From positions 1,116,001 through 1,180,000 of the forward strand of contig NC_014160.1 of the NCBI RefSeq assembly GCF_000092185.1: a stretch of DNA of 64,000 bases. Direction: 5' to 3'. Positions 20,166-37,946 of the stretch are shown here, in pieces. Positions within the stretch are counted from its first letter, which is position 1. Every line of letters starts with the position of its first letter. Both the position numbers and the translations under genes were made by a program. The notes beneath the pieces were generated by a model. The model made no database searches. It saw only the letters and a program-made list of their open reading frames with translations, and had not been told where the DNA came from. Origin of the DNA: Thermosphaera aggregans DSM 11486 (GTDB taxonomy: Archaea > Thermoproteota > Thermoprotei_A > Sulfolobales > Desulfurococcaceae).

Positions 20166-20410
20166 TATATCCTCTTAGCCCTCGCTTTCTCTCGTTGCGA
20201 AAGAGCCTCCTCATACTCCTCCATTATCTTCTTAACGTACCCCTTCAACTCCTCCGGCGGCACCCTCTCAACCAGGCTTTTAAAGAAGCGTGACGCGCAA
20301 CGAGAGCTGTGGAAGCTCAGCGTTAAATCCCCGTAGATTAAAACAACCCCCTGCCCCTTCGGGAAAACCCTCCCGCAAACCACGCACCTATACCGCGCAC
20401 TCACCCACAC
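20165..20410 (-). CDS. Small treble-clef/TRASH-like zinc-binding protein
   Basis: An 81-residue protein with CVVCGRVFPKG...FHSSRCASRFF: a Cys-x2-Cys pair about 25 residues before a His/Cys, as in L24e/TRASH zinc knuckles, followed by a charged helical tail. Function unknown; such domains bind metal and are often ribosome-linked or metal-sensing. It overlaps the preceding membrane-protein gene by 23 bases and the following hydrolase gene by one base, so the three are probably one transcript. Confidence 0.78.
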   Translation of the reverse strand: MWVSARYRCVVCGRVFPKGQGVVLIYGDLTLSFHSSRCASRFFKSLVERVPPEELKGYVKKIMEEYEEALSQREKARAKRI

Positions 20411-21122
20411 CAGCCTCTCTCAGCTTGTCGATAAGCTTCCCTGTTTCAAGAGTGTACAGCCTTATCCTCATGCTCTTATTGCTCCGGCTCCTGAGTTCCA
20501 CGAACTTCCTGTCAGGATTGGGTTCGAAGCATATGTTCTCGTTGAATGCGATGAACTGTCTATTATCGAGCATCACCCCTTTCCTGTAAACCTCGAAGCC
20601 GATCCTGGCGAAGAGGAAGGTTTGCATGTCACTCCCCCTGAACAATAAGTACCTGAGCCCCTGCATAACGCCGAAGAAGAAGACGTACATTCCGAGGAAG
20701 TATGTGAACCTCAGGAGCACCTCATCCCCCGTGTACTCCCCTATGATGCTAACTATTAAGGGGCCTATGTAAGCTTGATAAATACTCCACAGTATGAAGA
20801 CGAAGAACAGTAGCATGAAGTTCAACATCATCATGGTCATCTGCTTCTTCAACTCAGCATTCAAGTACTTGTCATACATCATGGCGTTAACAGGGTTGGA
20901 CTCCTTGAAAACAGGGGAGCCCAGCTCGCTCCTCGGCGGGGGCTTCATCCCCTTGCTGGTCAGCTTAAACATTACCGCCATAAACACTATAAAGTATACT
21001 AGGAAGAATGCGAATGCGTACCCAGGCACCACTGCTGAAACCAGCGCGAAGAGAACCATGGATAATGCTTGAACAGCCCACATCGTCTTCCTAGGCGGCT
21101 GACTCATCATTTCAAACACCAT
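20388..21122 (-). CDS. Conserved archaeal membrane protein (DUF2208-like?)
   Basis: A 244-residue protein with about four membrane spans (residues about 15-50, 95-120, 135-160), the conserved-looking PPPRSELGSPVFKESNPVNAMMYDKYLN between pairs, and a soluble C-terminal beta-rich domain. The overall shape suggests an archaeal DUF2208 protein, but I place it from memory of architecture only. It heads the cluster with the zinc protein and hydrolase. Confidence 0.75.
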   Translation of the reverse strand: MVFEMMSQPPRKTMWAVQALSMVLFALVSAVVPGYAFAFFLVYFIVFMAVMFKLTSKGMKPPPRSELGSPVFKESNPVNAMMYDKYLNAELKKQMTMMMLNFMLLFFVFILWSIYQAYIGPLIVSIIGEYTGDEVLLRFTYFLGMYVFFFGVMQGLRYLLFRGSDMQTFLFARIGFEVYRKGVMLDNRQFIAFNENICFEPNPDRKFVELRSRSNKSMRIRLYTLETGKLIDKLREAGVGECAV

Positions 21123-21152
21123 AAGCCGTACTGAAATCAGGCTCTTTAAGAA

Positions 21153-21161
21153 TTATATTAA
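21153..21161 (+). promoter_or_regulatory. TATA box of tandem C/D sRNAs
   Basis: TTATATTAA is centred 26 bases before the predicted RNA 5' end at about 21183, five bases before box C of the first sRNA. Confidence 0.5.
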
Positions 21162-21182: not shown

Positions 21183-21240
21183 CCTTGATGATGAGTCGCC
21201 ACTTGACGGATGAGTGAAGACGGTCCGTGTTTCTGAACAC
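21183..21240 (+). ncRNA. Candidate C/D box guide sRNA 1
   Basis: Box C ATGATGA (21188-21194), 12-nt guide GTCGCCACTTGA, box D' CGGA (21207-21210), 3-nt spacer, box C' GTGAAGA (21214-21220), 12-nt guide CGGTCCGTGTTT, box D CTGA (21233-21236). Both guides have the archaeal length of 12 nt. The D guide is complementary to AAACACGGACC, a stretch I recall as conserved in large-subunit rRNA; the N+5 rule would place 2'-O-methylation on the A of AAACA. A TATA box sits at the right distance. Such RNAs work with L7Ae, Nop5 and fibrillarin. Confidence 0.65.
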
Positions 21241-21251
21241 TCACACTGCTC

Positions 21252-21311
21252 GCGTAGCGATGAGGAGGAGCTTAGTGCGGAACGGTGAAGAAGTTATCCC
21301 CGCCTGAGCCC
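21252..21311 (+). ncRNA. Candidate C/D box guide sRNA 2
   Basis: Box C GCGATGA (21257-21263), 14-nt guide, box D' CGGA (21278-21281), 3-nt spacer ACG, box C' GTGAAGA (21285-21291), 12-nt guide AGTTATCCCCGC, box D CTGA (21304-21307). D', spacer length and C' are the same as in sRNA 1, 20 bases upstream, and no separate TATA is visible, so the two are probably one transcript. The D guide complements GCGGGGATAACT, similar to the GGGGATAAC stretch of 16S rRNA near helix 8. Confidence 0.55.
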
Positions 21312-21388
21312 TCACTCAGCGAGCCTAGGGCCACAGTGATCCAGGATAAAAGCGAGACTACCACTCTAGTTTAAACAGGGTGGGCTGG

Positions 21389-21868
21389 TTGAGCAATGTT
21401 AGATTATTCCTCAACATCATCATTGACGCACAGCCCGGATGGGTGTCTAGAACCGATAAAGCGTTAAAAGGCAAGGGATTTAAAACACGCCTAACGCCCC
21501 CCTCTACGATAAGCGCGTTTAAAGCCTACGGCACGGGAAACCCCGGCGAGATAGTAAGGGAGGTGGAGGAGCTCCTAGCCAACCCCTCGTGGAGGGCTCT
21601 CTGCATAGAGCACTGGCTACTGGTTGAGAAGGAGTGCCCCTGCCGGGGAGGGAGGGCGTGCGTGGAGGTGAGGAACAGTCAGCTACTTCACGCACACTGC
21701 AGGGAGGACGGGGGCGTGAGCTACCGGGTGTTAAACACTAAAACCCCTCCCTCAAACCCTTTGAGCATTCCGAGAAGCGTGTTCAAGATCTGCACGGAGC
21801 CCTCAGGCGTACAGGATTTGAAAGTGAAACTATTAAAAATCCTGGAAACGTTAACAAGCATAGAGTGA
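21389..21868 (+). CDS. Hypothetical protein with Cys-rich centre
   Basis: About 159 residues, not recognised. It has a helical N-terminal half with FLNIIIDAQPGWVSRTDKAL and a Cys-rich middle (KECPCRGGRACVE, later HCREDG) that may bind metal. Start: TTG 21389 has GGTGG with 6-nt spacing (GGGTGGGCTGG before it); GTG 21380 overlaps that site. Codon choice and SD support a real gene; function unknown. Its stop codon lies in the box C of a downstream sRNA candidate. Confidence 0.65.
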   Translation: MSNVRLFLNIIIDAQPGWVSRTDKALKGKGFKTRLTPPSTISAFKAYGTGNPGEIVREVEELLANPSWRALCIEHWLLVEKECPCRGGRACVEVRNSQLLHAHCREDGGVSYRVLNTKTPPSNPLSIPRSVFKICTEPSGVQDLKVKLLKILETLTSIE

Positions 21869-31989: not shown

Positions 31990-32302
31990 GGGGCCGGGCG
32001 GCCCGTCGACGCCTCCGTTTGGAGGTGAGGAAACTCCGCGCACCCCGTGGCAGTGCGGCCCCGTAAGGGGCACGGGTAGTCCCCGTGGCAACGGCACAGA
32101 AACGGTACGGCCGTGGCTGGATGGCCGTGATGCGGGCGGGCCCCCGGTGACGGGGGTTTAAACCGTTGAGGACGGCTACGGACGCGTTGAAACGGCCGCC
32201 CCGCACGGTGCAAGGCCTGGTTCCGGTGTGAGGGCCACGCGACCGGTGTAGGCCGCTTAGACGAATGCGGGCTTAACAGAACGCGGGTTACGGCCCGGCC
32301 CT
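31990..32302 (+). ncRNA. rnpB: RNase P RNA
   Basis: A GC-rich RNA of about 313 nt. Conserved landmarks: GAGGTGAGGAAACTCCGC (32022-32039, CR-I region), GGCACAGAAAC (32093-32103, CR-IV region) and the 3' consensus TTAACAGAACGCGGGTTA (32273-32290). The ends GGGCCGGGC (31991-31999) and GCCCGGCCC (32293-32301) pair to form helix P1. The size fits a full archaeal type A RNA rather than the shortened Pyrobaculum form. A TATA-like GTTATAGG around 31957-31965 is at the right distance. Proteins read within it on the minus strand are artefacts. Confidence 0.96.
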
Positions 32303-37818: not shown

Positions 37819-37946
37819 TGCCCGACCCGGCCATAGTGGCCGGGCAACACCCGGTCTCGTATCGAACCCGGAAGTTAAGCCGGCCACGTCAGGGTGGCAG
37901 TGAGGTCCGCGAGGCCTCGCAGCCGCCCTGAGCTGGGATCGGGCAC
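37819..37946 (+). rRNA. rrf: 5S ribosomal RNA
   Basis: Helix I is GTGCCCGA at the 5' end paired with TCGGGCAC at 37939-37946. The conserved loop sequence GAACCCGGAAGTTAAGCC is at 37865-37882, and helix IV/V lies around GTCCGCGAGGCCTCGCAGCC. Length about 128 nt. It stands alone, not linked to 16S or 23S, as is usual in crenarchaea. Confidence 0.97.

Follow-up and report, generated by a model that had tools for sequence, protein, structure and literature searches.

The genome of Thermosphaera aggregans consists of one contig of 1,316,595 bp, and the window analysed here (the whole stretch of 64,000 nucleotides) contains two units with the box order of C/D box sRNAs, arranged head to tail on the forward strand at 21188-21236 and 21260-21307. 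They are flanked by a divergent membrane-protein gene upstream and by an ORF downstream. The features of the region are as follows (window coordinates):

20388-21122, reverse strand: divergent gene for a DUF2208 membrane protein (Pfam PF09973, E 1.2e-67)
21151-21161, forward strand: TATA-like block AATTATATTAA, 27-37 nt upstream of the first C box, likely promoter
21188-21236, forward strand: sRNA 1, from C box through D box
21188-21194, forward strand: C box of sRNA 1, ATGATGA, exact to RUGAUGA
21195-21206, forward strand: D' guide of sRNA 1, GTCGCCACTTGA
21207-21210, forward strand: D' box of sRNA 1, CGGA
21214-21220, forward strand: C' box of sRNA 1, GTGAAGA, three nt past D'
21221-21232, forward strand: D guide of sRNA 1, CGGTCCGTGTTT
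21233-21236, forward strand: D box of sRNA 1, CTGA, exact
21260-21307, forward strand: sRNA 2, from C box through D box
21260-21266, forward strand: C box of sRNA 2, ATGAGGA, one mismatch to RUGAUGA
21267-21277, forward strand: D' guide of sRNA 2, GGAGCTTAGTG
21278-21281, forward strand: D' box of sRNA 2, CGGA
21285-21291, forward strand: C' box of sRNA 2, GTGAAGA, three nt past D'
21292-21303, forward strand: D guide of sRNA 2, AGTTATCCCCGC
21304-21307, forward strand: D box of sRNA 2, CTGA, exact
21285-21374, forward strand: closed frame starting at the C' box of sRNA 2 (GTG, 29 codons, TAA)
21380-21868, forward strand: downstream ORF of 162 aa, in a different frame from the one that starts at the second C' box

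The first-pass annotation had described two tandem units with a common CGGA-N3-GTGAAGA centre, and both were found at this place. The centre departs by one mismatch each from CUGA (D') and RUGAUGA (C'). Two details had to be corrected: the gap between the units, given as 20 bases, is 23 nt (D box 1 ends at 21236 and C box 2 starts at 21260), and the guide of 14 nt is not needed when ATGAGGA is taken as the second C box, the four guides then being 12, 12, 11 and 12 nt long.

A strict box pattern, which had been fitted to these two units, matched them alone in the 1,316,595 bp of the genome and had no match in ten simulated genomes (first-order Markov). With a looser box pattern five loci were found in the genome against 0-1 per simulated genome. 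The genome also encodes fibrillarin and Nop5. In Rfam neither unit reached the cut-off of any family; sRNA 1 scored 37.4 bits across the whole model of sR5 (RF01304, cut-off 40), and sRNA 2 gave a near-match of 22 bits to sR55 (cut-off 35). The family sR5 belongs to the same class as sRNA 1, but its consensus D guide is a different sequence.

After a search of relatives with the 191-bp region, all 229 genomes of the class were screened with the C'-guide-D pattern of each unit, allowing at most one mismatch. The motif of unit 1 was present in 110 of the 229 genomes (47 of 87 genera) and that of unit 2 in 70 (34 genera), while the reversed-pattern control gave zero matches throughout for both units. 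Both motifs occurred in 45 genomes, and in 41 of these they lay on the same strand with unit 1 first and 61-251 bp between the C' boxes. These ordered pairs belong to the family of the window (23), to f8 (Pyrodictiaceae, 14), to f6 (three, one of them labelled Aeropyrum) and to f9 (one), and further pairs were found with a looser match in f6 and f10. There were four exceptions to this order or spacing. The two motifs were far apart in G110 and G157 and 757 bp apart in G029, and in G010 they lay on opposite strands about 150 bp from each other, so that the pair appears inverted. Furthermore, the DUF2208 gene was upstream of the pair in 27 of the 27 family loci tested. With an order held across four families, the pair is ancient. 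A chance origin was dismissed because the motifs are conserved across families, which we consider decisive. Together with their rarity in the genome, their class-wide conservation, the covariation of guides and targets described below and the fibrillarin and Nop5 genes, this strongly supports the original identification, and we regard the pair, on comparative grounds, as a genuine and deeply conserved tandem of C/D box sRNAs, that is, an element of a known kind. Archaeal C/D box sRNA clusters have been described within repertoires that are variable (PMC7994747), whereas here several families retain both the pair and the sequence of its two units.

A single TATA box serving both units, with dicistronic processing, had also been proposed, and this part is plausible for only some of the loci. 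Besides the TATA-like block of the window, the A/T fraction reaches 0.81-1.0 at positions -33 to -27 of the first C box in 16 related loci. The spacer between the units measures 10-23 nt in four genera, including that of the window with its 23 nt, which leaves no room for a second promoter; in the window, the place required for it is occupied by the D guide and D box of sRNA 1 and is not TATA-like. A shared promoter is therefore likely here. The units could instead be two merely adjoining genes, each with a promoter of its own, as suggested by an A/T block at -34 to -30 of the second C box in ten loci with spacers above 38 nt and by G010 and G029, where the inverted or distant units indicate that they can work apart. 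Against this speak the short spacers of the four genera and the order retained in 41 of 45 genomes, and we consider separate promoters unlikely. One promoter for both units is thus plausible at this locus and probably not the rule in all relatives.

The guides were compared with the 16S, 23S and tRNAs of the same genome, and the methylated nucleotide was predicted with the fifth-nucleotide rule. Both D guides are complementary to the 23S rRNA. The D guide of sRNA 1 pairs with 23S 677-688, AAACACGGGCCG, through 11 Watson-Crick pairs and one G.U, predicting Am681, and none of 150 shuffled guides did as well on the same rRNA. In the 31 genomes with readable 23S the site at 677 was invariant and always paired, and the guide varied among them staying within the Watson-Crick/G.U rule. 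The same guide has a second fit at 23S 1525-1534, AACACGGACC, where the fifth nucleotide would be A1528. This is the sequence that the first-pass annotation had given as part of conserved large-subunit rRNA; it does exist and the subunit was right, but the main target is the site at 677-688.

The GGTCC form of the guide is an exact match to the second site, and this form was found in 11 of the 13 genomes that have AACACGGACC against 2 of the 18 that do not (Fisher p = 1e-4, uncorrected for kinship). In addition, G014 has a compensated pair, with the site AACACGAGCC and the guide GGCTCGTGTT, and in G020 and G053 the second site has been lost and the guide does not match. All this speaks against the possibility that the guide serves A681 only, the fit at 1525-1534 being a by-product of similar sequences. 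That possibility draws on the invariance and constant pairing of the site at 677 in 31 of 31 genomes and on G015, G048, G011 and G198, which depart from the association between guide form and second site, and we hold it to be somewhat improbable, if still a serious one. The simplest reading of the comparison is that A681 would be the ancestral target and that A1528 would be a second target in some lineages.

The D guide of sRNA 2 had been assigned to a stretch of 16S rRNA. Its best fit, to GGGGATAAC, lies instead in the 23S rRNA, at 2602-2611 (CGGGGATAAC) in helix 89, with ten Watson-Crick pairs and a predicted Gm2605. In the alignment with E. coli this nucleotide corresponds to G2446, which precedes A2451 by five nt, and it is located beside the peptidyl-transferase centre. 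Eight of 150 shuffled guides equalled this fit on the same rRNA. The pairing was kept in all genomes tested, including G020, where the helix 89 target is CAGGGATAAC in place of CGGGGATAAC and the guide is GTTATCCCTG in place of GTTATCCCCG, a compensatory change; two other genomes of the same genus carry the D guide 2 of G020. The region 23S 1569-1580 was also considered as main target of this guide and was rejected because the compensatory change tracks helix 89 instead.

Outside the class, the exact C'-guide-D motif of sRNA 2 was sought in 84,980 species genomes and gave 36 matches, 35 of them in archaea and one in a bacterium. The archaeal matches include Methanothermococcus, Marsarchaeota, Methanomethylicota, Nanoarchaeota, Woesearchaeota and two Asgard genomes. 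In the 12 distant archaeal genomes carrying guide 2 that were searched for a motif like guide 1, only matches with two mismatches were found, none of them convincing. In Methanothermococcus the guide GTTATCCCCGG takes the D' position in a complete C/D unit that has a ggca/tgcc terminal stem.

The two D' guides did not exceed chance on their own rRNA, since 97 and 103 of 150 shuffled guides, respectively, matched or beat them, and a search of the tRNAs of this genome gave nothing convincing for either. The core of D' guide 1, TCGCCACT, fits 23S 702-709, AGTGGCGA. Among the relatives this guide keeps a GCCAC core that fits GTGGC of 23S 703-707, and its flanks track the rRNA in G005 and G018. Its register relative to the D' box varies among relatives, and for this reason its role may be to position the RNA and not to guide methylation, a suggestion derived entirely from comparison. 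For D' guide 2 no convincing rRNA or tRNA target was found and its sequence differs between genera. It is an orphan guide, a kind accepted among archaeal C/D box sRNAs (PMC7994747).

The second unit overlaps a reading frame in many relatives. Fourteen genera other than that of the window (11 in its own family, two in f8, one in f10) have a frame that starts with ATG, GTG or TTG at the C' box of unit 2 and stays open over some 180-205 aa; its predicted product begins with M/V-K-K-L-S-P or similar. Even in G029, with its units about 750 bp apart, the frame is open for 178 aa. In G031 and G004 there is no in-frame ATG, GTG or TTG upstream, and the next one beyond the C' box region is at codon 84 or 68; the C' box region is thus the sole possible start, and if the ORF is indeed translated in this predicted form, its translation would have to start within the sRNA. 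In the window the corresponding frame is closed, and in this genus the fusion of sRNA and ORF was lost or never arose. The downstream ORF of 162 aa had no match in Pfam or NCBIfam, and its predicted model, of middling quality, gave no significant fold match; BLAST showed its homology with the overlapping ORF for part of the window's family and not across families.

From the long ORF with its (M/V)KKLSP-like beginning in 14 genera it could be argued that unit 2 is conserved as the start of a protein gene and not as a guide RNA. Nevertheless, C'-guide-D is kept despite a closed frame in the genus of the window, in G011, G021 and G020 and in f6 and f9, the guide follows the change of the rRNA in G020, and in other archaeal phyla the motif stands in surroundings unrelated to these. 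We consequently rejected the idea that the conservation is due to protein-coding constraint alone, and that reading is scarcely credible. Unit 2 as a guide RNA might still have a second role where the frame is open. There, one and the same transcript might yield guide RNA 2 by trimming or be translated from a start codon within that RNA. Assembly of the sRNP and binding of the ribosome would then be mutually exclusive, which would link a methylation guide for the peptidyl-transferase centre to the expression of the downstream protein, with the fusion lost in the genus of the window; we offer this as a speculation that we consider unlikely. ORF-overlapping sRNA genes are known in archaea, and 5' overlaps are reported to account for 7% of the sRNA genes studied and to lower expression of the downstream gene (PMC7994747), which makes a conserved overlap of interest; what differs here is that many genera have the start codon at the C' box.

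Taken together, it is highly probable that two C/D box sRNA genes form a pair at this locus, most likely with one promoter, and encode two guide RNAs that would direct methylation of the 23S rRNA at A681 (possibly also A1528) and at G2605. The boxes, the guides and their complementarity, their covariation with the targets and the conserved pair and order are seen in the sequences themselves, while transcription from one promoter, processing, RNP assembly and methylation are inferred. We infer that the promoter at about 21151-21161 most likely drives both units and that the primary transcript would be trimmed to give two separate guide RNAs, each of which would bind L7Ae, Nop5 and fibrillarin. 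In the resulting particles the D guide of sRNA 1 would direct 2'-O-methylation to A681, and possibly to A1528 too, and that of sRNA 2 would direct it to G2605 beside the peptidyl-transferase centre.

Both predicted sites have eukaryotic counterparts. In yeast, Am649 of the large subunit is guided by U18 and Gm2815 by snR38 (PMC8817022; PMC11542601). A681 is the sole A of AAACA with a C 14 residues further on, and the distance between A681 and C695 is the same as that between Am649 and Cm663 in yeast (14 nt); by this spacing A681 is equivalent to yeast Am649, the U18 site. Yeast A2820 corresponds to E. coli A2451, and in part on this numbering we consider G2605 (E. coli G2446) equivalent to yeast Gm2815, the snR38 site. 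Similar guides are expected when the rRNA target is invariant, and for this reason orthology with the snoRNAs is not claimed. U18 (SNORD18) has the same predicted target nucleotide as sRNA 1 and a similar guide because the target is invariant, but its gene context is unlike that of sRNA 1, which fits the Rfam model of SNORD18 with just 16.5 bits (cut-off 41). In the case of snR38/SNORD38 the predicted target nucleotide is equivalent to that of sRNA 2, which has no Rfam match.

The repertoires of archaeal C/D sRNAs are reported to vary: a comparison of seven species found no rRNA site that was modified in every one, and counterparts among the snoRNAs of the last eukaryotic common ancestor have been identified for only a few archaeal sRNAs (PMC7994747, PMC3511168). 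The two guides of this locus, predicted to aim at the U18 and snR38 nucleotides, stay together in an unchanged order in several families. The locus is notable in that the pair is conserved, both predicted targets are shared with eukaryotes, guide 1 probably serves two sites, and a start codon overlaps the second unit in relatives. With the guides linked and guide 2 present in scattered archaeal phyla, Asgard included, it becomes directly testable how old two core rRNA methylations are and what it costs to have a start codon in common with a guide RNA.

Other RNA genes were located during the analysis. The looser box pattern gave a C/D box sRNA candidate at genome positions 89509-89560 (+), with a D guide, AGGTCTTGAGTA, that fits tRNA-Leu(CAA), a tRNA with an intron, in its anticodon region, and two more candidates at genome positions 466242-466290 (+) and 947601-947649 (-). 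The 16S and 23S genes are outside the window (genome 52824-57595), and the window itself contains the 5S rRNA at 37823-37941 (+, 69.7 bits) and the RNase P RNA at 31990-32302 (+, 165.7 bits).
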